NCBI RefSeq assembly: GCF_900115975.1 | Contig: NZ_FOYM01000007.1 | Span: forward strand, 1 to 64,000 | Reading direction: 5' to 3' | DNA length: 64,000 nt | Origin: Desulfoscipio geothermicus DSM 3669 | Lineage (GTDB): Bacteria > Bacillota > Desulfotomaculia > Desulfotomaculales > Desulfallaceae | In this document: piece by piece, positions 5,494 to 20,831 of the stretch | Layout: the number at the start of each line of letters is the position of its first letter | Numbering within the stretch: position 1 is the stretch's first letter | The notes under the pieces: generated by a model | Database searches by the model: none | What the model was told of the DNA's origin: nothing | What the model saw: only the letters and a program-made list of their open reading frames with translations | Translations under genes and position numbers: made by a program

Positions 5494-5522
5494 CGTAAAA
5501 AAACATACATTATGTGTTATTC

Positions 5523-5586: not shown

Positions 5587-5627
5587 GCGGGAAGGCGGGT
5601 GCGGGTCAGGGTCGCCTGCCTTCCCGC
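5587..5627. repeat. GC-rich inverted repeat in the spoVR/nitroreductase gap
   Basis: GCGGGAAGGC (5587-5596) is perfectly complementary to GCCTTCCCGC (5618-5627), with a G-rich loop. No T tract follows on the plus strand. It lies between convergent genes and might act as a minus-strand terminator or be a REP-like unit. Nothing else is recognisable between 5550 and 5709. Confidence 0.5.
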
Positions 5628-5709
5628 AGGCTAAGCATTACTTGTGGAAAATGAGGAATCGAGTTTTCGATACAATCCAAAAGGTAACCGTATAAAATTG
5701 GGAAATATG

Positions 5710-6282
5710 CTAATCAAATTTAAAAATAATCTCCTCAAGGGGGCGTTTGGGCACATGGTGTACTCCCTCCGTGTCACGCCAGTATTTTATATCTTTGTCG
5801 GCCGTTTCAATAACTACGGTTTCCTTGGGGTGGCCGAGGGCAATAACAGCCATTATTTCATGTTGCTCCGGAATGTTCAACAATTCCCTTAACTTTTTCC
5901 GTTTTAAACCGGCCAAGATACATCCTCCCAGACCTTTTTCCACCGCGCCGAGCAGTATGCTCTGGCAGGCGATGCCCAGGTCCACCTGTGGATAAGGGCT
6001 GCTTATGCCGGTATCATTAAGAATAATAATATAAGCCGCCGGTCTTTCGCCTTCCTCCGGTCCGGGCCAATCTTTAAGATACGCAGCCCACGCTAAATTA
6101 TCAAATATACGGGCATTCTTTTCCGGTTCAGAGGATAAAATAAATTTCAACGGTTGCTTGTTGGCCGCCGAAGCAGACAACCTGGCCAGATTAACCAAAT
6201 TCTTCAGCGTACTTTCGCTAATTGCTTTATCCTGGTAAAAACGGCGGTAGCTTCTGTTTTTGGTTATTAATTCATATAGCAT
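5710..6282 (-). CDS. nitroreductase family protein (FMN-dependent)
   Basis: 190 residues from ATG 6282, which has the ribosome binding site GGGGGAGA; the longer open frame up to 6351 lacks one. Family features are the N-terminal NRSYRRF (Arg residues that bind FMN phosphate), ARLSASAANKQPLKF (FMN loop), the VDLGIACQSILLGAVEKGLGGCIL segment and VIALGHPKE near the C terminus. Such proteins reduce nitro groups, quinones or flavins with NAD(P)H; the substrate cannot be told from sequence. It is transcribed alone, away from the ABC transporter genes. Confidence 0.9.
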   Translation of the reverse strand: MLYELITKNRSYRRFYQDKAISESTLKNLVNLARLSASAANKQPLKFILSSEPEKNARIFDNLAWAAYLKDWPGPEEGERPAAYIIILNDTGISSPYPQVDLGIACQSILLGAVEKGLGGCILAGLKRKKLRELLNIPEQHEIMAVIALGHPKETVVIETADKDIKYWRDTEGVHHVPKRPLEEIIFKFD

Positions 6283-6318
6283 TTTATCTCCCCCATGATA
6301 GATGGAAATTATTTTAAT

Positions 6319-6327
6319 ATTATAACA
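6319..6327 (-). promoter_or_regulatory. extended -10 promoter candidate for the nitroreductase gene
   Basis: On the minus strand the sequence reads TGTTATAAT, a TGn extended -10 with a perfect TATAAT, about 37 bases before the start codon. I see no good -35 at the normal distance. Confidence 0.4.
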
Positions 6328-6382
6328 TAAGTGGCTGTTTAATATTAACAATAGACGTAATTTATGCTTAAATAAAATACTA

Positions 6383-6411
6383 TTGACTTCAATTCTTTAG
6401 TTAGCTAAACT
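6383..6411 (+). promoter_or_regulatory. sigma-A type promoter for the amino acid transporter operon
   Basis: TTGACT (6383-6388), 17-base spacer, TAAACT (6406-6411). It lies 55 bases before the start of the binding protein gene. Confidence 0.55.
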
Positions 6412-6466
6412 GTTAGAGGAACATATTAATAAACTAATTTTTTTTTGGTGGAGGAGATGAGGGGTA

Positions 6467-7324
6467 TTGGTTAAAAAGTTTATATGGCTCGTGGTGCTTG
6501 TGCTGGGGTTGACCTTCACTGTCACGGGTTGCGGCGGTAACCAGCCGTCGGACAAGCCCGAAGGCGAAGCTGTGAGCGCCGATGCGGAAAAAACCACCTG
6601 GGAATTGATTCAGGAAAAAGGCGTTATGACAATCGGATTGGATGACACATTCAGACCGATGGGCTTTCGTGATGAAAACGGTCAACTCGTAGGTTTTGAC
6701 ATTGATATGGGTAAAGAATTTGAAAAGCGCCTGGGCGTTAAAATGGAATGGATTCCCACCGACTGGAGCGGTGTGACGGGCGCTTTGAATTCCAAGAAAT
6801 TTGACGTGGTAATTAATGGCATGAGTATCACCGAAGAGCGGAAAAAAGTGATTGACTTTTCCATACCGTACGTTAATGCCAGTATTGGTATGGCGGTGCA
6901 AAAAGATAACAATGATATTAAGACAAGGGACGATTTGAAAGGGAAAACAGTGGCTACTCAGGCCGGCAGTTCCGGATACGAAGCCTGCAAAAAACTGGTG
7001 GAAGATGGTATCATAGACGAGACAAACCTCAAGCAGTACAACCAGTATCCAGAAGCATTCCAGGACCTGGCATTTGGTCGTGTTGACGTAGTGGTGGTTG
7101 ACGTAACTACGGCGCAAGATTTTGTCAACAAAAGGCCTGATACTTATAAAGTTGTTGAAGAACCGTTAGTGGAAGACTTTTATGCCATTGGCCTGCGGAA
7201 AGAAGATAAGGACCTGAAAGAAGTGCTGGACAAAACATTAAGAGAAATGATGGAAGACGGAACGCTGGTTGAAATTTCCAAAAGATGGTTTGACGGCAAG
7301 GATATGACTGCCAAACCAGAATAA
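6467..7324 (+). CDS. polar amino acid ABC transporter, substrate-binding lipoprotein
   Basis: 285 residues from TTG 6467 with GGAGGAGATGAGGGG upstream. It starts with a lipoprotein signal peptide: KK, a hydrophobic core, then the lipobox TVTGCGG with Cys at about residue 22, followed by a short acidic linker. The mature part is a family-3 solute-binding protein (SBP_bac_3): GVMTIGLDDTFRPMGF, GFDIDMGKEF, INGMSITEERKKVIDFS and KGKTVATQAGSSG. It should bind an amino acid outside the membrane and deliver it to the permease encoded next. The family covers Glu, Gln, Arg, His and cystine, and the ligand is not determinable here. Confidence 0.93.
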   Translation: MVKKFIWLVVLVLGLTFTVTGCGGNQPSDKPEGEAVSADAEKTTWELIQEKGVMTIGLDDTFRPMGFRDENGQLVGFDIDMGKEFEKRLGVKMEWIPTDWSGVTGALNSKKFDVVINGMSITEERKKVIDFSIPYVNASIGMAVQKDNNDIKTRDDLKGKTVATQAGSSGYEACKKLVEDGIIDETNLKQYNQYPEAFQDLAFGRVDVVVVDVTTAQDFVNKRPDTYKVVEEPLVEDFYAIGLRKEDKDLKEVLDKTLREMMEDGTLVEISKRWFDGKDMTAKPE

Positions 7325-7328
7325 TAAC

Positions 7329-7350
7329 AGGGCGCGATTGTTCGCGCCCT
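7329..7350 (+). terminator. intercistronic hairpin after the binding-protein gene
   Basis: AGGGCGCG (7329-7336) pairs with CGCGCCCT (7343-7350), directly after the stop. The trailing sequence CAAAAACTTT is a poor terminator tail. Such hairpins often stabilise the binding-protein mRNA or only partly end transcription, giving more binding protein than permease. Confidence 0.6.
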
Positions 7351-7385
7351 CAAAAACTTTGCGCTGTTTTGTGGGGTGTTGAACA

Positions 7386-8057
7386 ATGCGCTTCGGTCCA
7401 ATCGATGTAGAATTCATCCTGGGCATTCTGCCGTTTCTTTTTAAAGGCGCCCTGATTACCATTGAATTAACTGTACAGGCTATAGTTTTTGGGACATTTA
7501 TCGGGTTATTTGTCGCTCTGATGAAAATATCCCGCTTTAAGGTATTATCAATACTGGGGGGTTTTTATACCTGGGTGATTCGCGGCATTCCCCTTCTGGT
7601 ACAGCTCTTTATTCTTTATTACGGTTTACCGCATATTGGCATACAATTAAGCCCTAAAGCAGCAGCAGTAATGGGGTTGAGTATTTGCGGCGGCGCGTAT
7701 ATAGCGGAAATAATCAGGGCAGGTATTCAGTCTATTGAAAAAGGGCAAATGGAAGCCGCTCTTTCCCTGGGCATGTCTTACGCCCAGGCCATGCGGCGAG
7801 TTATATTGCCCCAGGCGTACCGGCGTCTGTTGCCGCCCATGGGTAATGAATTCATTGCCTTAATGAAGGACACCTCACTGGTTTCGGTAATCACTATGGT
7901 GGAATTGATGCGTAGCGGGATACTGCTGAACACCACTTATTTCCGCCCAATGGAAATATACATAACTGTTGGTGTAGTTTACTTGATTATGACAACATTT
8001 TTTATCTATTTAATCAGTCTTTTGGAAAAACGTCTGGCCATATCAGACGGCGAATAA
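7386..8057 (+). CDS. polar amino acid ABC transporter, permease
   Basis: 223 residues, His/Glu/Gln/Arg/opine permease family. Membrane segments lie at about residues 15-38, 55-80, 87-105 and 185-208. The EAA loop that contacts the ATPase is present: [20 protein letters not shown] (about 120-139). [20 protein letters not shown] is typical of the N terminus. It lies between binding protein and ATPase genes on the same strand, with ATG 7386 as the only reasonable start. One permease gene implies a homodimer. Confidence 0.93.
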
Positions 8058-8067
8058 CGGGAGTGAA

Positions 8068-8829
8068 ATGTTGATGATTGTGGCGGAAAAAGTTAATAAA
8101 AGCTTTGGCAAGTTACATGTATTAAAAGACGTCAGCCTCACCGTTCAACAGGGGGAAGTGGTGGTAATCATCGGGCCCAGCGGGTCCGGTAAAAGTACTT
8201 TTTTACGCTGTCTGAATTATTTGGAACCCATTGACAATGGATATATTACCGTGGACGGCCAGCCGGTTGGTAAAAGGAGGTTGCCGAATGGGCGCCTGGT
8301 GGATGATAGCAGAAAAAATTTATACCGCCTGAGAAGCCGGATCGGCATGGTGTTTCAAAGGTTTAACCTTTTTCCTCACCAAACGGCTCTGCAAAATGTC
8401 ATGGAAGGCCCCATAACAGTATCCAGGATTCCGGTATCAGAGGCAAAGGCCCGGGCCGAGGCGCTGCTGGCCAAGGTGGGTTTGGCGGATAAAGCCCAAG
8501 CATACCCGGTCCAATTGTCCGGCGGCCAACAGCAACGGGTGGCCATTGCCAGGGCGCTAGCCATGCAGCCCAAGGTGATGTTGTTTGATGAACCCACCAG
8601 CGCCCTGGACCCGGAACTGGTGGGTGAAGTGCTGGAGGTCATTAAGGATTTGGCCAGGGATGGGATGACCATGGTGGTGGTGACTCATGAAATGGGTTTT
8701 GCCCGGGAGGTGGCTGACCGGGTAGTATTTATGGATGAAGGAAGCATTCTGGAAGATACCACGCCGCAGAATATTTTCACCAGGCCCGGGCATCCCCGGA
8801 CCAGAGAATTCTTAAGTAAAATATTATAG
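8068..8829 (+). CDS. polar amino acid ABC transporter, ATP-binding protein (GlnQ type)
   Basis: 253 residues. Walker [10 protein letters not shown] (about 38-46), Q-loop [10 protein letters not shown], signature [15 protein letters not shown], Walker [15 protein letters not shown] and the switch His in VVVTHEMGF. The VFQ.FNLFPH and [17 protein letters not shown] blocks are typical of the GlnQ/HisP branch. Ten bases separate it from the permease stop. ATG 8068 or ATG 8074 could start it; GGGAGTG upstream serves either. Confidence 0.94.
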
Positions 8830-8842
8830 ATTGATATCTTGA

Positions 8843-8866
8843 TGCCCCTTGCGAGGGGTATTTTTT
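8843..8866 (+). terminator. Rho-independent terminator of the amino acid transporter operon
   Basis: CCCCT (8845-8849) and AGGGG (8854-8858), extended by a TG/TA pair outside, followed by TATTTTTT. It lies 14 bases after the ATPase stop. Confidence 0.8.
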
Positions 8867-9007
8867 ATTACTGAAACGCTGGATGCCCGGTTGCTGCAGA
8901 CCTGAATGCGGGAACGAGAGAATTGTGTATAAATTTTGTCGACGCTGGTTTTTTTTAACCTAATTATTACTGATAGTTAACTAACAATTATCAATTTTAA
9001 TTATTAC

Positions 9008-9047
9008 TTGACAAGTGTAAAGTGAAAAAATACAATAAAATTGTCAA
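9008..9047 (+). promoter_or_regulatory. strong sigma-A promoter with overlapping inverted repeat (operator candidate)
   Basis: TTGACA (9008-9013), 17-base spacer, TACAAT (9031-9036). TTGACAA (9008-9014) and its exact inverted copy TTGTCAA (9041-9047) bracket the -10, so a dimeric repressor bound there would block transcription. The XRE/cupin gene starts about 85 bases downstream, which suggests autoregulation. The rest of the 8867-9130 gap is AT-rich and holds nothing else I can name. Confidence 0.65.
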
Positions 9048-9130
9048 ACAAGTTGGTTTACTTAAATAATATAAATTTCACATATTTTTAAAATTTTTTA
9101 AGTAGGACGGGCTTAATATGGAGGATAGCC

Positions 9131-9682
9131 ATGGATTTGGGTAGCCGGGTTAAGCAGTTACGTCAAAATAATAATCTCAGTGTCAGACAACTGGCCAAAA
9201 AAGTAGGAGTTACCGCCAGTTTTATCTATCAGCTGGAACAAAACAAAGTATCTCCTTCTTTTTCCACTTTAAAAAGCATTGCCAGTGCTTTAAATACCAG
9301 TATGACTTTGCTGGTTGAGGACGAACTGCCGGAAGAATGGGTCATCGTGCGCAAAGAAAAGCGCAAGAAAGTAGCGGCTGAAGATGTGGCATTGAACGTA
9401 CAATTGTTAACCTTTCTCGGCGCCAGGAACAAAAAAATGCAACCGCTGGTGTTTACAGTGGAGCCCGGTGATAAACAGGTGCAAATGCCCTCTTTTCCCG
9501 GGGAACATGAAGAATTTGTATACATTATACAGGGTGAGTTGGAGATCCGTACCGATAACGCAAAATACAAACTGAAGGCGGGTGATGCGGCATATTTTAT
9601 GTTTGACAAACCGGTTACAGTTATCAACGTGGGACAGGATATGGTTGAGGGTCTGTGGCTGATTTGTCCGCCTGGGGTTTGA
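9131..9682 (+). CDS. XRE-family transcriptional regulator with cupin sensor domain
   Basis: 183 residues. The N-terminal helix-turn-helix of the Cro/XRE type is at about 3-60 (LGSRVKQLRQNNNLSVRQLA, GVTASFIYQLEQNKVSPSFS), followed by a linker and a C-terminal cupin barrel at about 110-180 (FPGEHEEFVYIIQGELEIR, LKAGDAAYFMF). Proteins of this layout (PuuR/SinR-cupin type) sense small ligands with the cupin and repress nearby promoters. GGAGG lies nine bases before ATG 9131. It is monocistronic between the ABC importer and the hydrogenase operon; either could be its target. The ligand is unknown. Confidence 0.92.
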   Translation: MDLGSRVKQLRQNNNLSVRQLAKKVGVTASFIYQLEQNKVSPSFSTLKSIASALNTSMTLLVEDELPEEWVIVRKEKRKKVAAEDVALNVQLLTFLGARNKKMQPLVFTVEPGDKQVQMPSFPGEHEEFVYIIQGELEIRTDNAKYKLKAGDAAYFMFDKPVTVINVGQDMVEGLWLICPPGV

Positions 9683-9703
9683 GAATAAGTTATTTTTTTA
9701 GCA

Positions 9704-9725
9704 ATATGTTACCGACATATATAAT
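9704..9725 (+). promoter_or_regulatory. -10 element with inverted repeat ahead of the hydrogenase operon
   Basis: ATATGT (9704-9709) and ACATAT (9715-9720) form an inverted repeat that runs into TATAAT (9720-9725). A convincing -35 is missing at 17 bases (TTTAGC), which fits an activated or repressed promoter. The first operon gene starts at 9758. Confidence 0.4.
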
Positions 9726-9757
9726 CAATCATCGATAAACAGGGGGTTTACAGGGAA

Positions 9758-10255
9758 ATGCAACCTAGAAAATTTGAAAAATTGCAAGAAATCATCAACA
9801 AGCATGAAGGGAAAGTATCGCACCTGATTGCCATCCTGCAGGAAGTGCAGGCGGAATACCGTTACCTGCCCGAAGAAGTGCTTACTTACGTGGCCACCGC
9901 CATGGGCGTTTCCCCGGCCACTGTCTACGGCGTAGCCACCTTTTACGCCCAATTCTCCCTGGTGCCCAAGGGCAAATACATTATCCGGGTTTGCGACGGC
10001 ACTGCCTGCCATGTGCGCGGCGCGGCACCCATTAACTTCGCCCTGCGCAAAGAACTGGCCCTGCCCGACCAGCAACAAACCACCGACGACCTGCAGTTCA
10101 CCGTTGAAACAGTATCCTGCCTGGGCGCCTGCGGTCTGGCCCCGGTAGTAACCATCAACGACCAGGAAGTACACGGCCAGATGACTCCGGAAGGGGTCCT
10201 CGCAGTGCTCGCAAAACTGCAGGCCCGGGAACAGCAACCGGCTGAACAAGCTTAA
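9758..10255 (+). CDS. hydC: NAD-linked [FeFe]-hydrogenase, NuoE-like [2Fe-2S] subunit
   Basis: 165 residues of the thioredoxin-like [2Fe-2S] ferredoxin family (24 kDa subunit of complex I). The four cluster cysteines are in CDGTACHVRG (about 85-90) and CLGACGLAP (about 125-129). The helical N terminus EVQAEYRYLPEEVL followed by VYGVATFYAQFSLVPKGKY is typical of HydC/HndA. It forms the electron-transfer partner of the NuoF-like subunit. First gene of the hydrogenase operon, 22 bases before the next gene. Confidence 0.93.
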   Translation: MQPRKFEKLQEIINKHEGKVSHLIAILQEVQAEYRYLPEEVLTYVATAMGVSPATVYGVATFYAQFSLVPKGKYIIRVCDGTACHVRGAAPINFALRKELALPDQQQTTDDLQFTVETVSCLGACGLAPVVTINDQEVHGQMTPEGVLAVLAKLQAREQQPAEQA

Positions 10256-10277
10256 CGGGTAAGGAGGATAAGAGGAC

Positions 10278-12161
10278 ATGATTAAAACAAGACAAGAATA
10301 TACCACCTACCAGACCAAACTGAAGGCCGAACTGGCCCGGGAAAAAATGCGCGTTCTGGTTTGTGCAGGCACAGGCTGCGTCGCCAACGGCTCTTTAACA
10401 GTGTACGAGGCATTTGAACAAAAAATAAAAGCCAAGGGCCTTCCCGTTAAAGCACAGCTGCTGGAAGAAGCGGGCGGACACGAACCATACGCAGTCAATA
10501 TCAGCGGGTGCCACGGTTTCTGCCAGATGGGGCCGCTGGTGCGCATCGAGCCGAGCGGCGTATTCTATCACCATGTCAAGCCCGGCGACGTTGATGAAAT
10601 AATTGAAAAACACATATTAAACAACCAGTTGGTTGAAAGATTATTATATCATCACCCGGCCACCGGCCAGGCTGTAACAACCCAGGACCAAATCCCATTT
10701 TACCAGAAACAAACCCGGGTAGCTCTGGAACACTGCGGGCGCATCAACCCCGACGACATCAACGATTACATCGCACATGGGGGCTATAAAGCCATAACTG
10801 AAATATTATTTGAAAAGACCCCCGAACAAATCATTGACGAAGTCTTGGCCTCCGGTCTGCGCGGTCGGGGCGGAGGCGGCTTTCCCACCGGGAAAAAATG
10901 GCAATTTGCCCGGGCTGCCACAAGCGACAAAAAATATATTATCTGCAACGGCGACGAAGGCGACCCCGGAGCCTTCATGGATCGCAGCGTCATGGAAGGC
11001 GACCCGCACCGGGTCCTGGAAGGCATGATGATTGCCGGTTACGCCATCGGCGCCGACGAAGGCTACATCTACGTCCGCGCCGAATACCCCCTGGCTGTAA
11101 AGCGTCTTAAGCGCGCCGTCGTCGCAGCAGAAGAGATGGGCCTTTTGGGCTATAACATCCTTGGTACTGGCTTCTCTTTTAAAATCAACATCAAAGAAGG
11201 CGCGGGGGCCTTTGTCTGTGGCGAAGAAACCGCCCTGATAGCTTCCATCGAAGGCCAGCGCGGTATGCCCCGGCCGCGGCCGCCTTTCCCGGCCAATAAA
11301 GGCTTGTGGGGCTGCCCCACCATCATTAACAATGTTGAAACTCTGGCCAACCTGCCCCCCATCATCATTAACGGCGGCCAGTGGTTCCGGGGTTTCGGCA
11401 CCGCCGGCAGCCCGGGCACCAAAACCTTTGCCCTGGCCGGCCAGGTGGCGCATACCGGTCTCGTCGAAATTCCCATGGGCATGAGCCTGCGGGAAATGGT
11501 CTTCGAAATCGGCGGGGGATTAAGGGACGGCAAACAATTCAAAGCCGTACAGATCGGCGGCCCCTCCGGCGGCTGCCTCACCGAAGCGCACCTCGACCTG
11601 CCCCTCGACTACGAAGCCCTGAAACAAGTCGGGGCCATGATTGGCTCCGGGGGTCTGGTCGTCATGGGCCAGGACACCTGCATGGTGGAAGTGGCTAAAT
11701 TCTTCATGGGCTTTGTCCAAAACGAATCCTGCGGCAAATGTGTTCCCTGCCGGGAAGGTACCAGGCGCATGCTCGAACTGTTGACTAAAATCACCCGGGG
11801 GCAGGCCGGGGAAGAAGACCTGGCGCTTTTGGAAGAACTGGCTTTGGTTGTCCAGGACGGTTCATTATGCGGGCTGGGCAAAACCGCGCCCAACCCCGTG
11901 CTTACCACCTTGCGTTACTTCCGGCACGAATACGAAGCCCACGTTCGGGATAAAAAATGCCCGGCCGGGGTTTGCAAAGCCCTACAGGATTATTATATCA
12001 ACCAGGAAAAATGCAAGGGCTGCGGCCTGTGCGCCAAAGTATGCCCCGCCGAAGCCATCGCCGGGGCCAAAAAAGAACCGCACGCCATCGACACCGCCAG
12101 GTGCTTAAAGTGCGGCACCTGCATCGAAAAGTGCAAATTTAACGCTATCTATACGGCCTAA
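10278..12161 (+). CDS. hydB: NAD-linked [FeFe]-hydrogenase, NuoF-like flavoprotein subunit
   Basis: 627 residues in three parts. First comes an N-terminal [2Fe-2S] thioredoxin-like domain (CAGTGC at about 29-34, CHGFC at about 78-82). Next is a NuoF core with FMN/NADH-binding glycine loops GRGGGGFPTGKKW and GDEGDPGAFMDR and the [4Fe-4S] motif ESCGKCVPCREGTRR (about 482-496). Last is a C-terminal pair of [4Fe-4S] ferredoxin clusters (CKGCGLCAKVCPAEA, CLKCGTCIEKC). This is the HydB/HndC layout of hydrogenases that couple NADH and ferredoxin oxidation to H2 formation. AAGGAGG precedes ATG 10278. Bifurcation itself cannot be proven by sequence. Confidence 0.95.
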   Translation: MIKTRQEYTTYQTKLKAELAREKMRVLVCAGTGCVANGSLTVYEAFEQKIKAKGLPVKAQLLEEAGGHEPYAVNISGCHGFCQMGPLVRIEPSGVFYHHVKPGDVDEIIEKHILNNQLVERLLYHHPATGQAVTTQDQIPFYQKQTRVALEHCGRINPDDINDYIAHGGYKAITEILFEKTPEQIIDEVLASGLRGRGGGGFPTGKKWQFARAATSDKKYIICNGDEGDPGAFMDRSVMEGDPHRVLEGMMIAGYAIGADEGYIYVRAEYPLAVKRLKRAVVAAEEMGLLGYNILGTGFSFKINIKEGAGAFVCGEETALIASIEGQRGMPRPRPPFPANKGLWGCPTIINNVETLANLPPIIINGGQWFRGFGTAGSPGTKTFALAGQVAHTGLVEIPMGMSLREMVFEIGGGLRDGKQFKAVQIGGPSGGCLTEAHLDLPLDYEALKQVGAMIGSGGLVVMGQDTCMVEVAKFFMGFVQNESCGKCVPCREGTRRMLELLTKITRGQAGEEDLALLEELALVVQDGSLCGLGKTAPNPVLTTLRYFRHEYEAHVRDKKCPAGVCKALQDYYINQEKCKGCGLCAKVCPAEAIAGAKKEPHAIDTARCLKCGTCIEKCKFNAIYTA

Positions 12162-12203
12162 CCATAAACCAACCACAAACAAAAAACGAGGGGTGTGTGA
12201 AAA

Positions 12204-14228
12204 ATGCAAACAGGCCAGGTATATATAGACGGACAGGCGGTGCCCGTGGGCGACGCTCAAAACATACTGGAAGTGGTCAGAAAGGCCGGCATCGAACTGC
12301 CCACCTTCTGCTATCATTCTGAATTAAGCGTATACGGCGCCTGCCGCCTCTGCATGGTGGAAGTGGAAAGCATGGGTCTCGTGGCCTCCTGCTCCACTCC
12401 GCCCGCCGATGGTATGATAATACATACCAATACCCGGCGAACCCGGCGCCTGCGCCGGATGATTCTGGAGTTGCTTTTAGCCAACCATGACCGGGAATGT
12501 CCCACCTGCGCCAAGAACACTGGCTGCAAGCTGCAGAAACTGGCCCGGCAGTACGGGGTGAATACTATCCGCTTCGGTAACCGGGATGAAAAACTACCCA
12601 TAGACGCCTCCGGCAGCAGTATTGTCAAGGATCCCAACAAATGCATTCTTTGCGGTGATTGTGTGCGCATGTGCAGAGAAGTGCAGGGGCTGGGTATTTG
12701 GGACTTTGCCCACCGGGGCAGCAAAACACAGGTCACCACCGCCTTTGGCAAAGACCTGGCTGATGTGGCCTGCGTCAACTGCGGCCAGTGCGTGGCTGTC
12801 TGTCCTACCGGCGCACTGACCGTAAAATCGGAAATCGACCGGGCTTGGTCGGCCATCCACGACCCGGCGAAAACCGTGGTGGTGCAGATCGCCCCGGCGG
12901 TGCGTGTAGCCCTGGGCGAAGAATTCGGTCTGGCGGCGGGCTCGGCCGTCACCGGCAAGATCGTGGCTGCCTTGAAGAAAATGGGGGTGGACCGGGTATT
13001 CGACACCCTTATCGCCGCCGACCTCACCACAATTGAAGAATCCATGGAATTTATGAGCCGCATGGAAAACGGCGGCAAGTTGCCGTTGTTTACCTCCTGC
13101 TGTCCAGGCTGGATCAAGTACTGTGAGCAAATGCACGGCGAACTTCTGGAGAACCTTTCCAGCTGCCGCTCCCCCCAACAGATGTTTGGCTCGTTGGTCA
13201 AAAAACATTATGCCAAAAAGATCGGTAAAACTTCCGGTGAGGTGGTCTGTATTTCGGTGATGCCCTGTACGGCCAAAAAATTTGAGGCCCAAAGGCCGGA
13301 ATTTACCACCGACGGGGTATACGACGTGGATATCGTGCTTACCACGGTGGAGTTGGCCCAGATGATCAAGGAAGCGGGCCTGGTATTCGACGACCTGGAA
13401 CCTGCGGGCTTTGACAACCCATTGGGCATGGGCTCGGGCGGCGCCCTGATCTTCGGTGCCTCCGGGGGTGTGATGGAATCGGTGGTGCGCTTTGTGTCCG
13501 GTTACCTGGGTGGCCCCGAGGTGGGCCGGGTAGACTACCATCCCGCGCGGGGGATTGAGGGTATCAAGGAAGCCGCAGTGACGGTTAAGGATAAGACGCT
13601 CAAAGTGGCTGTAGTCAACGGCCTGGCCAACGCCGAAAATCTGCTGCAGCGCATCAAAAACGGCGAGGCCGATTATCACTTGGTGGAAGTTATGGCCTGC
13701 CCCGGCGGCTGCGTGGGTGGCGGCGGTCAGCCCGACGCAAACGATACTGCGGCCCGGGTGCAGCGGCTAAAATCCATCTACCGGTTGGATGCCGTGGAGC
13801 AGGTGCACAAGGCCCAGGACAATGTGTACGTGAACAAGATCATCAACGAGTGGCTGCAAGGCCCCGGCTCCCACGCGGCACACCACGACTTGCATACTGG
13901 GTATGTGCACCGGCGCCGGATTACTGGCAAACCGATGGAGATAACGGGCGATGCTGGGAACGGTCAGGTGGATGTTTCGGTGTGCATCGGCACGGGGTGT
14001 TACTTGCGCGGTTCTTACGAGGTGCTGACCCGGTTTACCGACCTGGTACGGGTGTGCGGGCTGGAAGGGTATGTACGGCTGAACGGCACTTTTTGCCTGG
14101 AACACTGTGACCAGGGTGTTTCGGTGCGGGTGAACGATGAGATCATCACCGGGGTAACACCGGAGAATGCGGAAGAAGTATTTAGAAACAAAATTGCCGT
14201 CCGGTGCGGAACAACAGTGCAAGTGTGA
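12204..14228 (+). CDS. hydA: [FeFe]-hydrogenase catalytic subunit with C-terminal [2Fe-2S] domain
   Basis: 674 residues. N-terminal part: plant-type [2Fe-2S] (CYHSELSVYGACRLC), His/Cys-ligated [4Fe-4S] (HDRECPTCAKNTGC) and two [4Fe-4S] clusters (CILCGDCVRMC, CVNCGQCVAVC). The H-cluster domain has L1 TSCCPGW (about 296), L2 MPCTAKKFE (about 351) and L3 MACPGGCVGGGGQP (about 496), all with intact ligands. This includes the second Cys of TSCCP used in proton transfer. The C-terminal extension (about 585-674) is another thioredoxin-like [2Fe-2S] domain (CIGTGCYLRGS, CLEHC). This corresponds to group A3-type trimeric hydrogenases. It acts in the cytoplasm, with no signal peptide or membrane segment. 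Confidence 0.96.
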   Translation: MQTGQVYIDGQAVPVGDAQNILEVVRKAGIELPTFCYHSELSVYGACRLCMVEVESMGLVASCSTPPADGMIIHTNTRRTRRLRRMILELLLANHDRECPTCAKNTGCKLQKLARQYGVNTIRFGNRDEKLPIDASGSSIVKDPNKCILCGDCVRMCREVQGLGIWDFAHRGSKTQVTTAFGKDLADVACVNCGQCVAVCPTGALTVKSEIDRAWSAIHDPAKTVVVQIAPAVRVALGEEFGLAAGSAVTGKIVAALKKMGVDRVFDTLIAADLTTIEESMEFMSRMENGGKLPLFTSCCPGWIKYCEQMHGELLENLSSCRSPQQMFGSLVKKHYAKKIGKTSGEVVCISVMPCTAKKFEAQRPEFTTDGVYDVDIVLTTVELAQMIKEAGLVFDDLEPAGFDNPLGMGSGGALIFGASGGVMESVVRFVSGYLGGPEVGRVDYHPARGIEGIKEAAVTVKDKTLKVAVVNGLANAENLLQRIKNGEADYHLVEVMACPGGCVGGGGQPDANDTAARVQRLKSIYRLDAVEQVHKAQDNVYVNKIINEWLQGPGSHAAHHDLHTGYVHRRRITGKPMEITGDAGNGQVDVSVCIGTGCYLRGSYEVLTRFTDLVRVCGLEGYVRLNGTFCLEHCDQGVSVRVNDEIITGVTPENAEEVFRNKIAVRCGTTVQV

Positions 14229-14285
14229 CAATAATATACTTTTGCCAAATCAAGAAAAATATAATATAAAGGGAACCGGGACATT

Positions 14286-14293
14286 TTGTCGAA
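14286..14293 (+). promoter_or_regulatory. perfect 0A-box-like octamer upstream of the sensory hydrogenase
   Basis: TTGTCGAA lies in the 154-base gap between hydA and the sensory hydrogenase gene. It equals the Spo0A box core. One octamer is expected about once or twice by chance in a window of this size, so the weight is low. The gap is AT-rich, with no other clear element. Confidence 0.25.
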
Positions 14294-14382
14294 TTCGAAA
14301 AACATATTTATTCTTTGAAAACAAACAAAAGGGCCAAAGTTTAATAAGCATCTAATTGCGGGCAGGGAAAAGGGGTATGGTT

Positions 14383-16113
14383 ATGGGTTTGATTACCACC
14401 AATGAAGCCAGGTGCCGGGACTGTTACCGCTGCTTGCGGGCATGCCCCGTCAAGGCCATACGCATTCGTACCGGCGATGGTGCAGACAATCTGTATGCCC
14501 AGGTGATGGCGGAATTGTGCGTGCAGGATGCCCGCTGTGTGCTGGCCTGCCCGCAAAAGGCCAAAAAGGTGGCTTCGGACCTGAAGCAGGTAAAGCAGCA
14601 ATTAAAACAAGGCGTACCCATGGCCGCCGGGGTGGCCCCGTCCTTTGTGGCGGGGCTGCCCCTGCATAAGCCGGGGCAAATGCCCGCCCTGCTCCGGCGT
14701 CTCGGGTTCAGCAGGGTGCAAGAAACAGCCCTGGGCGCGGAACTGGTAGCGATGGCGCACCGGCGGATGGGTTTATCCGAACCGGTGATCAGCAGCGCCT
14801 GCCCGGTAGTGGTCAATTTAATTGAGCGACATTACCCGGAGCTGTTGCCTTTGTTGGCGCCGGTGGTTTCGCCGATGGTTGCCCACGGTCGCTATATGAA
14901 AAAAATGTACCCGGGCCACCGGACGGTTTTTATCGGCCCGTGTGCGGCCAAAAAGGAAGAGGCCCGGACATCCGGAATAGAAGATGCCGTTGATTTTGTA
15001 CTCGGGTTTGACGAATTCTGGGAATGGGTGCAGGATGAAGGCCTGGACTGTGACGGACTTGCCGAGACGGCATTTGATGGTCCCCGGCCCGGGCCGGCCC
15101 GGCTTTTCCCCATCGAGGGGGGATTGTTCAAGACCATATATGCCGGCGGGTCGGCGAAAAAAGAGCATATTACCGTTACCGGCCTGCAAAACTGCATTGA
15201 CTTTTTAAAACACCTTTCCCGGGATAAAGCTTCCGTCCCGGGGTTGATGGAACTTCTGGCCTGTCGGGGCGGGTGCATAGACGGCCCATTGGCTTTATGC
15301 CGGGAGGACGACATTTTTGCACGCCGTCGCCGGGTTATCAACTATTATAAAGAAACGGCCCGGCAGGCAGAAGATACCGGTAACGTCAATGTTGAGGAAT
15401 TGCCTGTTGCTCTCATGCAGCGGCAGTTTACCAGCCGTCAAATCACGATGCCCATACCCGATGATGACGCCATCAAACATATTCTGGCCCGCACCGGCAA
15501 ATACCGGCCCGAGGATGAGCTGAACTGCGGAGCCTGCGGTTATGAAACCTGCCGGGACAAAGCCGTGGCAGTTTACCGGGGTAACGCAGAAGTGCAAATG
15601 TGCATTCCCTACATGCGTAAACGGGCGGAGTCCATGTCCAACCAGGTGCTGACCGCCATGCCCAACGCCGTGATTATCGTCAACGGCAATTTGGTGGTCA
15701 AGGAAGTCAATCCGGCGGCTGAGCGCATGTTCAAATGTGCGGCCGGGGAAATTACCGGCAAAAAGCTGGACCAATTTATGAACCCCGCCAATTTTATAAA
15801 GGTCATGGAGAGCGGGGAGATGTTGAACAGCATCAACACGTATCCTGAAATGGATATGATAACCAGGGAAATTATTTTTCCGCTGGAAAACGGCCGTGTT
15901 ATTGTGGGTATCCTGGTGGATATTACGGCGGAAAAAAGACAGCGCGAGCAGTTTGAACTAGTCAAGGGGCAGACCATAGCCCGGGCACAGGAAGTAATCA
16001 CCAAACAAATGCAGGTAGCTCAGGAAATTGCCGGCCTGCTGGGGGAAACCACCGCGGAGACCAAGGTTTTATTAAGCAAGTTAATTGAATTAATGCGGCA
16101 GGAGCCTTTTTAG
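14383..16113 (+). CDS. sensory [FeFe]-hydrogenase-like protein with PAS domain (HydS type)
   Basis: 576 residues from ATG 14383; AAAAGGGG is seven bases upstream, whereas TTG 14356 and ATG 14377 are badly spaced. Ferredoxin-like start (CRDCYRCLRACPVKAI), then an H-cluster-like domain with SSACPVVVN (about 136), GPCAAKKEE (about 185) and LACRGGCIDGP (about 291). It continues with an extra [4Fe-4S] motif (CGACGYETC, about 381), a PAS domain (about 425-530) and a coiled tail. L1 has Ala where catalytic enzymes have the proton-relay Cys (TSCCP to SSACP), the usual sign of slow sensory hydrogenases (group C). The neighbouring PP2C gene matches the phosphatase-linked subgroup. It probably senses H2 and controls hydrogenase expression. 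Confidence 0.88.
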   Translation: MGLITTNEARCRDCYRCLRACPVKAIRIRTGDGADNLYAQVMAELCVQDARCVLACPQKAKKVASDLKQVKQQLKQGVPMAAGVAPSFVAGLPLHKPGQMPALLRRLGFSRVQETALGAELVAMAHRRMGLSEPVISSACPVVVNLIERHYPELLPLLAPVVSPMVAHGRYMKKMYPGHRTVFIGPCAAKKEEARTSGIEDAVDFVLGFDEFWEWVQDEGLDCDGLAETAFDGPRPGPARLFPIEGGLFKTIYAGGSAKKEHITVTGLQNCIDFLKHLSRDKASVPGLMELLACRGGCIDGPLALCREDDIFARRRRVINYYKETARQAEDTGNVNVEELPVALMQRQFTSRQITMPIPDDDAIKHILARTGKYRPEDELNCGACGYETCRDKAVAVYRGNAEVQMCIPYMRKRAESMSNQVLTAMPNAVIIVNGNLVVKEVNPAAERMFKCAAGEITGKKLDQFMNPANFIKVMESGEMLNSINTYPEMDMITREIIFPLENGRVIVGILVDITAEKRQREQFELVKGQTIARAQEVITKQMQVAQEIAGLLGETTAETKVLLSKLIELMRQEPF

Positions 16114-16136
16114 AGGAAAGGAGACCCGCGAAAAAT

Positions 16137-17276
16137 ATGGAATATTGCGTGGACATCGGCCTGGCGCAGTTGAATAAAGAGGGTGAAGAACTGTGCGGCG
16201 ACAGCGTGGAGGTCGTTAGCACCGCCAGCGACCATATCGTGGTGGTTGCGGACGGCCTCGGCAGCGGGGTAAAAGCCAATATCCTTTCCCGCCTGACCAT
16301 TAAAACAGCCGGTACCATGCTAAAAATGGGTGGTCGGATTGATGATGTGATGGAAACCCTGGCACATACGCTGCCCATTTGTAAAGTGCGTAAACTTGCT
16401 TATAGCACCTTCACCATTTTACAGGTTAAAAGGGACGGGCAGGCCTACCTTTTAGAATATGAAAACCCGCCGTCTTTTTGGGGCAACCGGCATAATTTGC
16501 ACAGTTTGCACACAACGGAGAGAGTTATTGGTGATAAAACTATCAGGGAAAGTTATTTATCCCTGCAGGAAAATGACTGGTTGGTCATCATTACTGACGG
16601 CGTGTTGTATGCCGGTACCGGAAAGACCTGGAACATGGGGTGGGGCCGGGACCGCGTGGGCGAATACCTGGCCCGGTCCTATGCGCCGGATAAGAGCGCT
16701 GCCCAGTGGTCGGCCGAAATCGTCAGGTTATGCAACAATATTTACGGCGGCAAGCCGGGAGACGATGCCAGCGTGGCGGTGGTCAAAGTGCGCAGGCCGC
16801 GGCTTGTGACGGTGTTGATCGGGCCTCCCCGCAACAAGGCCGATGACGCCCTGGTGGTAGATAAATTAATGCGGGCGGACGGCATTAAAATAGTATGCGG
16901 CGGCACCACAGGCAACATGGTGGGCCGCGTTTTGGGCAGGAATGTGCGTGTGGATCTGTCGTCCCGCACGGAAAGGATTCCGCCCGTGGGCATAATTCCC
17001 GGCATTGACCTGGTCACCGAGGGCGCTATTACACTGGTGGACGCCCTGGAACATTTAAAAGAGCAAGGCGAACTTGCCGGAAGAGATGGGGCGAGCCGGC
17101 TGGCCGCCGCGTTGCTGGCTGCCGATAGCGTGCACTTTATTGTTGGCATGGCGGCCAATCAGGCCCAGCACGGGGAGGGCATGCCCAGCATTTATATATA
17201 CAAGCAGTATATAATCCGTGATTTGATTCGGCTGTTGAAGGAATCCGGGAAACATGTGACTGAGGAATACTACTAG
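16137..17276 (+). CDS. SpoIIE/PP2C-type serine phosphatase with extra C-terminal domain
   Basis: 379 residues. The first 225 residues match the SpoIIE-like PPM phosphatase fold: EELCGDSVEVV, VVVADGLGSGVKA (metal-binding Asp and Gly), NDWLVIITDGVLYAG and GDDASVAVVKVR. The last 150 residues (LVTVLIGPPRNKADDALVV ... IVCGGTTGNMVGRVLGR ... GAITLVDALEH) are a separate conserved-looking domain I cannot name. AAAGGAG precedes ATG 16137. The gene follows the sensory hydrogenase by 23 bases, so it is its likely signalling partner, dephosphorylating an unknown protein. Confidence 0.88.
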   Translation: MEYCVDIGLAQLNKEGEELCGDSVEVVSTASDHIVVVADGLGSGVKANILSRLTIKTAGTMLKMGGRIDDVMETLAHTLPICKVRKLAYSTFTILQVKRDGQAYLLEYENPPSFWGNRHNLHSLHTTERVIGDKTIRESYLSLQENDWLVIITDGVLYAGTGKTWNMGWGRDRVGEYLARSYAPDKSAAQWSAEIVRLCNNIYGGKPGDDASVAVVKVRRPRLVTVLIGPPRNKADDALVVDKLMRADGIKIVCGGTTGNMVGRVLGRNVRVDLSSRTERIPPVGIIPGIDLVTEGAITLVDALEHLKEQGELAGRDGASRLAAALLAADSVHFIVGMAANQAQHGEGMPSIYIYKQYIIRDLIRLLKESGKHVTEEYY

Positions 17277-17301
17277 AGAACCGTACTGGGGAGAGGTAAA
17301 A

Positions 17302-17811
17302 ATGAATGAAAAACACTACCAGTGCAATTGCAGTCTGGCAGGGGCAAAAAAATTAGATGAGCAAGCTGTAGATAAGATACTGCAAAAACACCGGGGCAAG
17401 CCCGACGCTTTGTTACAAGTGCTTTTGGAGATGCATTCATTGATTGATTATATCCCCGAGAACATTGTTTTTCAGATAGCCGAAGGACTGGACATTCCCC
17501 CGGCGGATGTTTTCGGCATGCTTACTTATTATCCGTCCTTTAAAACCGCGCCCCCGGGGAAGTATAAGATTTCCGTATGCCTGGGCACCAATTGTTACTT
17601 GCGGGGCTCTTCCCGAATACTGGAGCGTCTGTGCCAGGTACTGAACATAGAGCCGGGCGATACCACCCCGGACGGCAAGTTTTCCCTGGAAGCGGTTCGT
17701 TGCCTGGGGGCTTGCGCCCTGAGCCCGGTGATCATGATTAATGAAGTGGTATATCCTCAGGTGGAACCCCAAAAGATTCCGGACATATTGATTAGTTGTG
17801 AAAAACCATAA
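17302..17811 (+). CDS. second NuoE-like [2Fe-2S] protein
   Basis: 169 residues of the same family as the first operon gene, with cluster motifs CLGTNCYLRGS (about 93-98) and CLGACALSP (about 134-138). It has a distinct N terminus with CNC at residues 8-10 and FGMLTYYPSFKTAPPGKYK. Last gene of the hydrogenase cluster. It might pass electrons between the sensory hydrogenase and the enzyme complex, or be an alternative HydC; that is speculation. GGGAGAGG precedes ATG 17302. Confidence 0.9.
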   Translation: MNEKHYQCNCSLAGAKKLDEQAVDKILQKHRGKPDALLQVLLEMHSLIDYIPENIVFQIAEGLDIPPADVFGMLTYYPSFKTAPPGKYKISVCLGTNCYLRGSSRILERLCQVLNIEPGDTTPDGKFSLEAVRCLGACALSPVIMINEVVYPQVEPQKIPDILISCEKP

Positions 17812-17842: not shown

Positions 17843-17869
17843 ACCCCGCGTCCGCGGGGTTATTTTTTT
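17843..17869 (+). terminator. Rho-independent terminator of the hydrogenase operon
   Basis: ACCCCGCG (17843-17850) and CGCGGGGT (17853-17860) followed by TATTTTTTT, 32 bases after the last stop. Confidence 0.9.
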
Positions 17870-18001
17870 AGACACGTAAGAATAATAAAATTTGAACATT
17901 ATTGTCGTTTCCCCGGGCCGGTTGCTCTCGGCTATGTTTTCAATATTTACGCGCCGGTGGAGCATATCCTACGCGCTTTGCTGTAAAGGACGGTGAAATC
18001 T

Positions 18002-18838
18002 ATGCGGGCCATGTGGAAAGGCGCCGTCACGTTTGGCCTGATTTACGTTCCCGTAAAAATGTATGCCGCCACGGAAAAAAAGGATGTCAGGTTCAACTAC
18101 CTGCATGATAAATGCAATACTCCCATTCGTTATACCCGTTACTGTCCCTATTGTGACGAGGAAGTTAAGAATGAGGAAATAATACGCGGCTATGAATATG
18201 AAAAGGGCAAATATATCACCATCACGGAGGATGACCTGGACAGTATAGCCGGGGAAAAGAATCGCAGCGTGGACATTATTGATTTTGTTGATATGCAGCA
18301 AATCGACCCGGTTTATTATGACCGCTCCTATTATCTGGCCCCGGGGGAAGGCGGCAACAAGGTTTATGAACTGCTGCGGCGGGCCATGCAGGAGACCGGC
18401 CGGGCAGCCGTCGCCCTCATTACCATCAGGAGCAGGGAGTCTCTGGCGATTATCCGGCCCACCGGCAAGGCGCTGATCATGGAAACCATGTTTTACGCCG
18501 ATGAAGTGCGCGCGGTGGATAAAATCGATGAAATCGGCGGTGAGGTGAAGCTGCACGACAACGAACTGAAGATGGCGGTAAACCTGGTGAACAACCTGTC
18601 CACTGATTTTGACCCGGCCAAGTACACCAGTGCTTACCGGGAAAAACTGCACGAAATGATCCGGGCCAAAATTGCCGGTGAAGCCGTGGTGGAGAAGCCG
18701 GCCGCACCGGCCGCCGAAAACGTGGTTGATCTCATGTCGGCGCTTAAGGCCAGCATTGAAATGACCCAGGAACAGCGGGGGAAAAAGCAGCGCGCCAGCA
18801 AGGCCAAAACACGTAAACGGAAAGTGGCCGAAAAGTAG
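18002..18838 (+). CDS. ku: Ku protein, non-homologous end joining
   Basis: 278 residues from ATG 18002 (MRAMWKGAVTFGLIYVPVKM, the standard bacterial Ku start). AAAGGA is 11 bases upstream; GTG 17993 would place it too close. Ku core blocks are YLHDKCNTPIRY, YCPYCDEEV, EYEKGKYITITEDDL and ETGRAAVALITIRSRESLAI. The C terminus is a Lys/Arg-rich tail (KKQRASKAKTRKRK), known in Ku proteins to help DNA binding. Ku forms a ring-shaped homodimer on double-strand ends and recruits LigD. The ligase and polymerase genes follow. The gap 17870-18001 shows no obvious promoter, though a sporulation sigma factor promoter would suit the known role of NHEJ in spores. Confidence 0.94.
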   Translation: MRAMWKGAVTFGLIYVPVKMYAATEKKDVRFNYLHDKCNTPIRYTRYCPYCDEEVKNEEIIRGYEYEKGKYITITEDDLDSIAGEKNRSVDIIDFVDMQQIDPVYYDRSYYLAPGEGGNKVYELLRRAMQETGRAAVALITIRSRESLAIIRPTGKALIMETMFYADEVRAVDKIDEIGGEVKLHDNELKMAVNLVNNLSTDFDPAKYTSAYREKLHEMIRAKIAGEAVVEKPAAPAAENVVDLMSALKASIEMTQEQRGKKQRASKAKTRKRKVAEK

Positions 18839-18841
18839 CCG

Positions 18842-19834
18842 GTGCAAGAACAGCGGTTTCATGCCCCTCCCCTGTGGAAGCCCATGCTGGCGGTCCCGGC
18901 TGATCCCTTTGACCACCCGGATTACTTTTTTGAGGTGAAGTGGGACGGCTACCGGTGCCTGGCCTATATTGAACAGCAAAGCATAAAACTGATCTCCAGA
19001 AACGCCAAAAACATTACCGCCGCTTTCCCCGACCTGGAAGATTTGTACAGACGCGCCGCCAAGGCGCCCGCCGTGCTGGACGGGGAAATAATCGTGCTGC
19101 AACAGGGCAAGCCATCCTTTGACGCCCTGCAATCCCGGGCCGGGCTGGAGGACAAGGACCGCGTCAGGCGGGCGGCGCTTAGCCTGCCGGCCATATATAT
19201 GGCTTTTGATATTTTATATTGTGCAGGCCGGCCGCTGCTGGACCGACCCCTGTATGAGCGCCGCGCCAGGTTGCAGGAAGTGGTCCGCGCCGGACACAAC
19301 TTTTTAATTTCTGAACAGGTGCAGGAGCACGGGGTGCTATTTTACCGGGCGTGCGTAGAAAAAGGTCTTGAAGGCGCCATGGCCAAAAAAATGGACAGCA
19401 AATACCGGCCTGGTGCCCGGTCCGCTTTATGGAAGAAAATACGCCATACCCGGGAGGCGGACCTGGTTATCTGCGGCTACAGGGCAGGCCGGGGAAAAAG
19501 GCTCCTGGGTTCGCTGGTGCTGGCTGCCTGGGACGGGGCGAGGTATGTATACCAGGGTATGGTGGGTAGCGGTCTGAGCCGGGATGAGGAGCAAGAGCTG
19601 CTGCAAAAGTTGGCCGCCTGGCGGATTGACAGACCCTTGCTGGAAAATGACGCGTTGCCCGGCGCCATTACCTGGGTGCTGCCGCGGCTGGTTTGCCGGG
19701 TGGAATATTTGACCATCACCAGGGATGGTATTTTGCGACATCCGGTATATCAAGGGCTGCGGGCGGATAAGGCGCCTGAGGAGTGTGCGCCGGCAAAGAT
19801 GCAAAATACTGCGGAAAAATTTAAGGATGAATAA
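18842..19834 (+). CDS. ligD: ATP-dependent DNA ligase (LigD ligase domain as separate protein)
   Basis: 330 residues from GTG 18842, three bases after the ku stop. Adenylation motif EVKWDGYRC with the nucleotidyl Lys at about residue 30, RNAKNI, LDGEIIV (motif III), LEGAMAKKMDSKYRPG (motif IV) and WKKIRH (motif V), then an OB-fold domain. In Pseudomonas and Mycobacterium the ligase is fused to polymerase and nuclease domains. Here it stands alone, the polymerase is the next gene, and no phosphoesterase domain is present. Confidence 0.92.
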   Translation: MQEQRFHAPPLWKPMLAVPADPFDHPDYFFEVKWDGYRCLAYIEQQSIKLISRNAKNITAAFPDLEDLYRRAAKAPAVLDGEIIVLQQGKPSFDALQSRAGLEDKDRVRRAALSLPAIYMAFDILYCAGRPLLDRPLYERRARLQEVVRAGHNFLISEQVQEHGVLFYRACVEKGLEGAMAKKMDSKYRPGARSALWKKIRHTREADLVICGYRAGRGKRLLGSLVLAAWDGARYVYQGMVGSGLSRDEEQELLQKLAAWRIDRPLLENDALPGAITWVLPRLVCRVEYLTITRDGILRHPVYQGLRADKAPEECAPAKMQNTAEKFKDE

Positions 19835-19880
19835 ATTTTTGATAACCTTGTAGATTAACCGGCAAAGCGAGGTGTCTCCC

Positions 19881-20831
19881 TTGAACGCATCAGACAAGGA
19901 AATGGTCGAGATTGCAGGGCGTGTGTTAACCCTGACCAATCTGGATAAGACTTTTTGGCCGGAGCAGCAACTGACCAAGTCCCATTTAATAAAATATTAT
20001 CTGGACATAGCCCCTGTTTTATTGCCATATATTAACAATAGGCCGCTGGTGATGAAAAGGTATCCGGACGGCATTACCGGTGAATATTTTTATCAGAAGG
20101 AATGTCCCGCCTATGCACCGGACTGGGTGGCAACCCACCCGGTAAAACACAGCCGCAAGGTAACCAATTATATTGTATGTAACGATGCCGCCACCCTGGT
20201 CTGGCTGGCGGGGCAGGGCTGCCTGGAAATCCACGCTTGGCTCAGCCGGGTGGAGGACATTGACTACCCCGATCTGGCTGTCTTTGATCTGGACCCGGCC
20301 GAGGGGGTTGATTTTAATGAAGTGCTGCAGGTGGCGCTGCTGGTGCGTGAGGTGCTGCAGGCCTATGGCATCAAGGGCTTTCCCAAAACTTCGGGGGCCA
20401 GCGGATTGCATATTTTTATTCCGCTGGAAACAAAGTATACATTTCCAGAGGTTACTGCAGCCATGAAATTTCTGGCGGAAATAATCGTGAGAGCTTACCC
20501 CCGGGGGGTAACTACTGAACGAAGCATTTCCAAACGCCGGGGTAAAGTATATCTTGATTATTTGCAAAATGGCCGGGGTAAAACCATGGCCTTTCCCTAT
20601 AGTCTGAGGCCGCTGCCCGGTGCGCCCGCATCAGCCCCTTTAACCTGGGGTGAGGTGGCGGAAAGACGATTTTCCCCTGCGGACTTTAATATGCGAAATA
20701 TTCTCGCCAGGGTAAAAAATGTTGGTGATTTATATGCCGGTCTCTTTAATGAAAAAAACAGTCTAAACCGGGTTATTCGGAACCAATCTGTCGTCAAAGA
20801 CCGGGTAACAGTCCGGCCCGGTGGGCCATAA
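19881..20831 (+). CDS. ligD: LigD-type primase/polymerase domain protein
   Basis: 316 residues from TTG 19881 with GAGGTG seven bases before; GTG 19872 overlaps that site. LigD PolDom family (AEP superfamily): LTNLDKTFWPEQQLTKSHLI, YYLDIAP, RPLVMKRYPDG, QKECP, LAVFDLDPAEG with the two metal-binding Asp (FDLDP), KTSGASGLHIFIP and STTERSISKRRGKVYLDYLQN-like (here VTTERSIS, RRGKVYLDYLQN). It fills in ends and adds nucleotides before ligation. The separate-protein layout with ligase and Ku adjacent is found in several Firmicutes. Confidence 0.92.
   Translation: MNASDKEMVEIAGRVLTLTNLDKTFWPEQQLTKSHLIKYYLDIAPVLLPYINNRPLVMKRYPDGITGEYFYQKECPAYAPDWVATHPVKHSRKVTNYIVCNDAATLVWLAGQGCLEIHAWLSRVEDIDYPDLAVFDLDPAEGVDFNEVLQVALLVREVLQAYGIKGFPKTSGASGLHIFIPLETKYTFPEVTAAMKFLAEIIVRAYPRGVTTERSISKRRGKVYLDYLQNGRGKTMAFPYSLRPLPGAPASAPLTWGEVAERRFSPADFNMRNILARVKNVGDLYAGLFNEKNSLNRVIRNQSVVKDRVTVRPGGP

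Follow-up and report, generated by a model that had tools for sequence, protein, structure and literature searches.

Organization of the hydrogenase operon

The stretch analysed here (the window; 64,000 nucleotides, positions 1 to 64,000 of the forward strand of contig NZ_FOYM01000007.1) comes from Desulfoscipio geothermicus DSM 3669 and carries an operon-like run in which the genes of a HydABC-type [FeFe]-hydrogenase (nuoE1, nuoF and hydA; 9758-14228) precede hydS, which encodes a putative sensory [FeFe]-hydrogenase, a PP2C-type phosphatase gene and a second NuoE-like gene, nuoE2. All of these features lie on the + strand. The first gene of the module (9131..9682) encodes an XRE-cupin transcriptional regulator (HTH_3, 2.6e-14; Cupin_2, 1.1e-10). 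It is followed by the promoter-like sequence TTAGCA-16-TATAAT (9698..9725), which matches the consensus in a scan at 10 of 12 positions and is as such no evidence of function.

The upstream enzyme is complete. nuoE1 (hydC; 9758..10255; PF01257, 6.4e-51) encodes the thioredoxin (TRX)-like [2Fe-2S] subunit of the catalytic complex, and nuoF (hydB; 10278..12161) a protein with an N-terminal [2Fe-2S] domain, a flavin mononucleotide (FMN) domain and two C-terminal [4Fe-4S] motifs (Complex1_51K, 8.4e-49; NADH_4Fe-4S, 3.3e-34; Fer4 at 572-625). hydA (12204..14228) encodes a catalytic group A [FeFe]-hydrogenase of 674 aa (Fe_hyd_lg_C, 1.4e-97), which scores 762.7 bits against NCBIfam NF040763, a model named group A6 with a cut-off of 765. 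By its genes and domains this is a putative bifurcating HydABC (group A3), with bifurcation itself predicted. HydA carries an extra C-terminal TRX-like [2Fe-2S] domain (13968..14198) homologous to the A5 domain of Thermotoga maritima HydA (7p5h_A residues 570-641, E 2.6e-15); it scores 128.6 bits with the A2 profile described below. We know of no function for the A5 cluster of bifurcating HydA. In the T. maritima enzyme this cluster is more than 30 Å from every other cluster and is electronically isolated (PMC9499530).

hydS (14383..16113) encodes 576 aa; we preferred the ATG at 14383 over the TTG at 14356 of the mechanically called open reading frame (ORF). Pfam domains are two N-terminal 4Fe-4S motifs, Fe_hyd_lg_C (1.8e-49), a C-terminal FeS domain (PF04060, 2.9e-11) and a PAS domain (PAS_8, 8.8e-6). 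SSACP takes the place of TSCCP, and FIGPC and LLAC stand where HydA has VMPC and VMAC. The equivalents of CpI C299, M353 and M497 are all changed: no relay Cys is present, and Gly and Leu replace the two Met next to the diiron site. Across 12 aligned HydS homologues Ala, Ser or Tyr fills the relay position and Cys never does (one further row has Thr-Ala), and the Cys ligands of the H-cluster are invariant. Based on its H domain, its C-terminal FeS and PAS domains and the adjacent phosphatase gene, HydS is a phosphatase-linked group C3 enzyme with a putative role in H2 sensing. The second N-terminal 4Fe-4S motif, CVQDARC, has Asp at a usual Cys position (14527-14529), occupied by Asp, Cys or Gly in relatives; the ferredoxin of Pyrococcus furiosus likewise has Asp at a usual Cys position.

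The phosphatase gene (16137..17276) begins 23 bp after hydS. Its product is a SpoIIE/PP2C-type Ser/Thr phosphatase, with activity predicted from PF07228 (7.7e-14), the fold and the metal site. The AlphaFold2 model, with a predicted local distance difference test score (pLDDT) of 90.6, gave VIA Z scores of 25.7 to 3pu9 and 24.9 to SpoIIE (5ucg), and the metal-site Asp residues (D39, D154 and D210) and Gly are invariant in 41 relatives. The distinct C-terminal Rossmann-like domain (16797..17273; pLDDT 91.5), marked by GPP, CGGTT and DLVTEG motifs, has no Pfam family. A fold search gave weak Rossmann-type matches, the best at Z 9.1 to 6s6y chain F, followed by a chain of the formylmethanofuran dehydrogenase complex (Z 8.5) and NuoG (Z 8.4); the best Foldseek match was methylglyoxal synthase (E 7.6e-3). 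Because these matches are weak, we draw no function from them.

nuoE2 (17302..17811), 25 bp further on, encodes a TRX-like [2Fe-2S] protein (PF01257, 2Fe-2S_thioredx, 2.6e-44) with a full-length NuoE fold. The operon ends at a terminator-like stem-loop with a T run (17843..17860; ACCCCGCGTCCGCGGGGT TATTTTTTTA; 7 pairs, 6 of them GC). A first-pass annotation, made from the sequence without database searches, had described a PAS hydrogenase with SSACP for TSCCP, a PP2C-type phosphatase and a second NuoE-like protein at 14383-17811, and the ORFs, Pfam matches and motifs agree with it. It missed the C-terminal domain of HydA and the XRE-cupin regulator, and its interpretation is supported in part.

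Genes 9758-17811 are likely co-transcribed, since the + strand scan found no terminator-like site between hydA and hydS, a strong terminator-like site follows nuoE2 and a promoter-like site lies at 9698-9725. An alternative is that the sensory genes have their own promoter in the 154-bp hydA-hydS gap (14229..14382) and are not co-regulated with hydABC. The gap is AT-rich and contains TATAAT, and in some relatives hydS and the phosphatase gene stand alone; the consensus scan gave no -35 partner, however, and the corresponding gap spans just 12 to 160 bp in close relatives with the same gene order. We consider a separate promoter unlikely. An Rfam scan of the window returned no matches, so the gaps hold no known riboswitch. 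The earlier claim of an H2-sensing module co-transcribed with the enzyme it could regulate thus stands as regards a putative sensor and phosphatase in that operon, with co-transcription itself likely.

Conserved partners of hydS and the phosphatase

The first-pass annotation had also proposed comparing operon structure across genomes. We compared 113 genomes of the class and 398 of the phylum, often metagenome-assembled, using listings of about 150 of the strongest matches and taking linkage from coordinates or mechanically called ORFs. HydS-like matches (E 1e-20) were present in 68 of the 113 class genomes, many of them other hydrogenases. The phosphatase gene lay directly 3′ of full hydS in 39/39 class loci read and in 77 of 80 named loci; the exceptions are two loci that stop at a contig edge (L108 and L149) and one with a tandem second HydS before the phosphatase (L134). 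The order XRE-cupin, nuoE, nuoF, hydA, hydS, PP2C, NuoE-like recurs at seven loci (L042, L043, L044, L045, L046, L051 and L052), and the window arrangement is therefore not due to chance. At further class loci hydS-PP2C occurs alone or ahead of nuoE-nuoF-hydA. As a separate observation, L054, L060, L062 and L075 have a second nuoE-nuoF-hydA set after hydS-PP2C, and at L054 and L075 two ORFs, one of about 310 aa and one of 350-380 aa, share the HydA matches.

NuoE2 proved to be lineage-restricted. It is confined to some relatives, is missing from many hydS loci and in five of the seven loci above (L044, L045, L046, L051 and L052) measures merely 95-126 aa. In a [2Fe-2S]-domain tree, a quick tree on a short alignment, NuoE2 clusters with the post-phosphatase NuoE-like proteins of L042 and L043, apart from nuoE1, which rules out a recent duplicate of nuoE1. 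The best PDB matches of NuoE2 are HydC subunits of bifurcating hydrogenases, and with its full-length fold it might stand in for HydC as an exchangeable subunit of the HydABC complex. Such a role appears very improbable given its separation from nuoE1 and its grouping with post-phosphatase proteins, some of which lack much of the N-terminal domain.

A second possibility is that HydS is a slow catalytic hydrogenase that exchanges electrons with ferredoxin or NAD(H) and has NuoE2 for an electron-transfer subunit (the ‘dimeric’ type, M2f), and that the phosphatase regulates something else. The intact H-cluster ligands, the completeness of NuoE2 and the listing of group C among ‘dimeric sensory’ enzymes (PMC3561251) would fit. 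In HydS, however, the substitution of the relay Cys and of the two Met beside it resembles that of slow sensory enzymes (PMC10055695), PAS and phosphatase accompany it almost invariably, and NuoE2 is absent or truncated at the loci just described; we regard this explanation as quite unlikely.

Instead of NuoE2, a small TRX-like [2Fe-2S] protein recurs beside hydS, and the comparison points to this protein as the usual [2Fe-2S] partner of hydS-PP2C. Proteins of 80-145 aa with the motif CVGSSCFLRG...FCxExC are encoded directly 5′ of hydS in many genomes and align with the C-terminal domain of HydA; in the [2Fe-2S]-domain tree the small proteins and HydA C-termini form one clade, separate from NuoE-like proteins. 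With a profile built from both (A2) we searched the 398 phylum genomes and compared the matches with HydS positions. Among the matches listed, all 102 free-standing small proteins fall in hydS-PP2C loci, in a few of which the contig ends inside the locus. By coordinates 84 of them lie directly 5′ of hydS, and reading the loci of the other 18 placed 14 more there. The small protein of L184 sits at the operon end, after a HydA without the domain; those of L189, L190 and L200 lie between the phosphatase and a further [FeFe]-hydrogenase. At four class loci the small protein and a hydS-type phosphatase form a two-gene unit without hydS (L160:6241-7744, L161:2-1315, L163:7512-9020 and L164:5847-7355).

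Within the class, the C-terminal domain of the phosphatase is found on phosphatases linked to hydS, on those that accompany the small protein without hydS, and on one partial phosphatase ORF adjoining nuoE-like and nuoF-like genes (G090, L229). In genomes of f8/g27 it is a stand-alone protein of 152-176 aa, encoded directly 3′ of a HydA bearing the C-terminal [2Fe-2S] domain in 5/5 loci read (L221:3875-4336, L222:7395-7853, L223:7249-7719, L224:3623-4102 and L225:3445-3915), with neither hydS nor a phosphatase gene beside it. A free [2Fe-2S] domain beside the phosphatase in some genomes and a free phosphatase domain beside HydA in others suggest that the [2Fe-2S] domain, PP2C, HydA and the phosphatase C-terminal domain may meet in one functional unit.

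Among the matches listed were 48 HydA with the C-terminal domain. Forty of them belong to hydS loci, two lie at the edge of a contig, and six have no such linkage; four of these six have HydS elsewhere in the genome. As a control for descent we built a tree of 105 HydA from an alignment without the columns of the C-terminal domain. The tree rejects the idea that the domain tracks HydS linkage independently: the two coincide chiefly through a single HydA clade that possesses both, and the claim for HydA is reduced to a clade-level association. The association of the free small protein with hydS-PP2C is left untouched by this control. At three deltaproteobacterial loci (L110, L112 and L113) a HydA-like ORF of 1144-1145 aa lies 5′ of hydS, with a weak [2Fe-2S]-domain match at its end.

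In the class we counted 17 XRE-cupin orthologues (identity 53% or more), and 14/17 are in hydS operons: nine, including that of the window and one on a broken contig (G013), lie 5′ of nuoE, and five directly 5′ of hydS. The other three are elsewhere; most of these positions were confirmed in the loci read. Within the locus, the XRE-cupin protein is the strongest candidate for the module's output, though unproven.

Proposed signalling route and its alternatives

Taken together, we propose, at a probability of roughly 0.6, that the window encodes a phosphatase-linked (group C3) H2- or redox-sensing module, placed behind the HydABC hydrogenase that it probably regulates, and acting from HydS through the phosphatase to a regulator. 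H2 or the state of the ferredoxin pool would determine the redox state or conformation of HydS, involving its H-cluster, FeS relay and PAS domain. HydS and a TRX-like [2Fe-2S] partner, here most likely the C-terminal domain of HydA and perhaps also NuoE2, would then control the SpoIIE-type phosphatase, which would dephosphorylate a regulator, with the XRE-cupin protein as the best local candidate. Expression of the hydrogenase operon, and possibly of other fermentation genes, would be adjusted as a result.

The part played by the C-terminal domain of HydA can be framed more narrowly. The A5-type domain may serve as a docking or electron contact to HydS and the phosphatase, with the free small protein as an adaptor elsewhere and the phosphatase C-terminal domain binding the hydrogenase. 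We put this forward as a tentative and rather doubtful extension. It would give the isolated A5 cluster of bifurcating hydrogenases a role open to testing and, if true, would mean that the catalytic hydrogenase and gene regulation are physically wired together.

Several observations weigh against the proposal or parts of it. On the HydA tree a single clade carries the C-terminal domain (2 changes), against 13 changes in HydS linkage; 10 independent pairs differ in HydS linkage with the domain unchanged within pairs, and the company it keeps with HydS may be due to shared descent. Two genomes (G414 and G474) have a HydA that retains the domain, yet no HydS was found in either. Most hydS-PP2C loci of Lachnospiraceae have neither the small protein nor the HydA domain. 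In the group D sensor TamHydS, H2 does not reduce the C-terminal cluster (PMC13104023), a result that counts against electrons simply being relayed to the PAS domain; by this analogy we do not favour a direct relay to the PAS region in HydS. Finally, the partner-switching phosphatases SpoIIE and RsbU share with the window enzyme their fold (Z about 22-26) and metal-site residues, but the latter has its own C-terminal Rossmann-like domain, and no anti-anti-sigma or anti-sigma kinase gene was found among the operon ORFs (9131-17811), the rest of the genome not having been searched for such partners.

The same data allow a different output, in which the module senses H2 or redox state with its main targets elsewhere, for example alcohol dehydrogenase or other hydrogenases, and its co-location with hydABC is mostly inherited. 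Many genomes have hydS-PP2C without an adjacent HydA, HydS-HydA linkage is labile on the HydA tree and adhE expression is altered in mutants of the hfs genes of Thermoanaerobacterium saccharolyticum (PMC5707799). Co-location with bifurcating hydrogenases is, however, repeated across distant lineages, and the XRE-cupin regulator is common to sensor and enzyme operons. Main targets elsewhere therefore seem improbable to us, and we retain regulation of the adjacent HydABC enzyme as the preferred reading.

Relation to described systems

Neither the arrangement nor the proposed function is new in kind, as both match how group C [FeFe]-hydrogenases are already seen in the literature (PMC5037454, PMC6776011, PMC10055695). 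HydDB describes group C3 as ‘phosphatase-linked (putative)’, with possible H2 sensing and process control via serine/threonine phosphatases (PMC5037454). The window member shares the classification, the proposed role and the order of PAS-containing hydrogenase and phosphatase, with no decisive difference; it sits after a hydABC operon and before a NuoE-like gene. Literature searches on group C3 with phosphatase, XRE-cupin with FeFe hydrogenase, and SpoIIE with sensory hydrogenase returned nothing specific.

In T. maritima, TM1420-TM1422 are listed as a ‘dimeric sensory’ hydrogenase adjoining the bifurcating TM1424-TM1426, and such pairs are usual (PMC3561251); HydS of this species is assumed to regulate the other hydrogenase in its operon (PMC10055695). 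The chemistry of HydS is described in the literature as slow or atypical. A [2Fe-2S] protein from the T. maritima operon is the subject of Pan et al. 2003, as cited in PMC10055695. The two species share a sensory hydrogenase and [2Fe-2S] protein beside HydABC and the C-terminal [2Fe-2S] domain of HydA (7p5h_A); compared gene by gene through published descriptions, they differ in that the post-phosphatase NuoE-like protein of the window is full length. The first-pass annotation had singled out NuoE2 as an electron link between sensor and complex and knew of no description of that path. That role for NuoE2 was not supported: the comparison points to the small [2Fe-2S] protein as the recurring partner, and, so far as the citing account goes, a [2Fe-2S] protein of the T. 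maritima operon has been described.

The hfsABCD operon of T. saccharolyticum has the same order of hfsA, PAS-hydrogenase hfsB and serine phosphatase hfsC (PMC11837493), and differs in that hfsD encodes a ferredoxin-linked [FeFe]-hydrogenase instead of HydABC. hfsC is phosphatase-like; hfsA matches poorly, and part of it resembles [FeFe] large subunits (PMC11837493). From its position and this description we infer that hfsA corresponds to the small [2Fe-2S] protein. According to the published genetics, ethanol yield rises about 1.8-fold when hfsA or hfsB is deleted, an effect that requires wild-type hfsC and hfsD and so puts phosphatase C and hydrogenase D downstream of A and B; deletion of hfsA also reduces downstream expression (PMC5707799). 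The Ruminococcus albus hydS cluster likewise contains a group C sensor, with a phosphatase in the proposed scheme, co-transcribed with its catalytic hydrogenase, but the partner enzyme is of group A1 and is accompanied by alcohol dehydrogenase; this cluster is 111-fold down in co-culture (PMC6776011). Against this background the comparison names concrete partners for group C sensing, namely the small [2Fe-2S] protein or HydA C-terminal domain, the phosphatase domain and the XRE-cupin regulator. The control of H2 versus ethanol or acetate formation is relevant to syntrophy, rumen methane and biofuel strains.

The same genome has a second bifurcating-type operon with a different putative sensor (L037; contig C48:1-15000, - strand 3004-10612). 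This sensor is a 447-aa [FeFe]-hydrogenase without PAS that also has SSACP and PF04060, and it is accompanied by two HATPase proteins, two DRTGG proteins, NuoE, a small TRX-like protein, NuoF and a 573-aa HydA; its partners are thus kinase-like, whereas the window sensor has a phosphatase. Directly behind the window operon, at 17993-20831, are a Ku gene and two ORFs that by eye resemble a split LigD-type ligase/polymerase pair.

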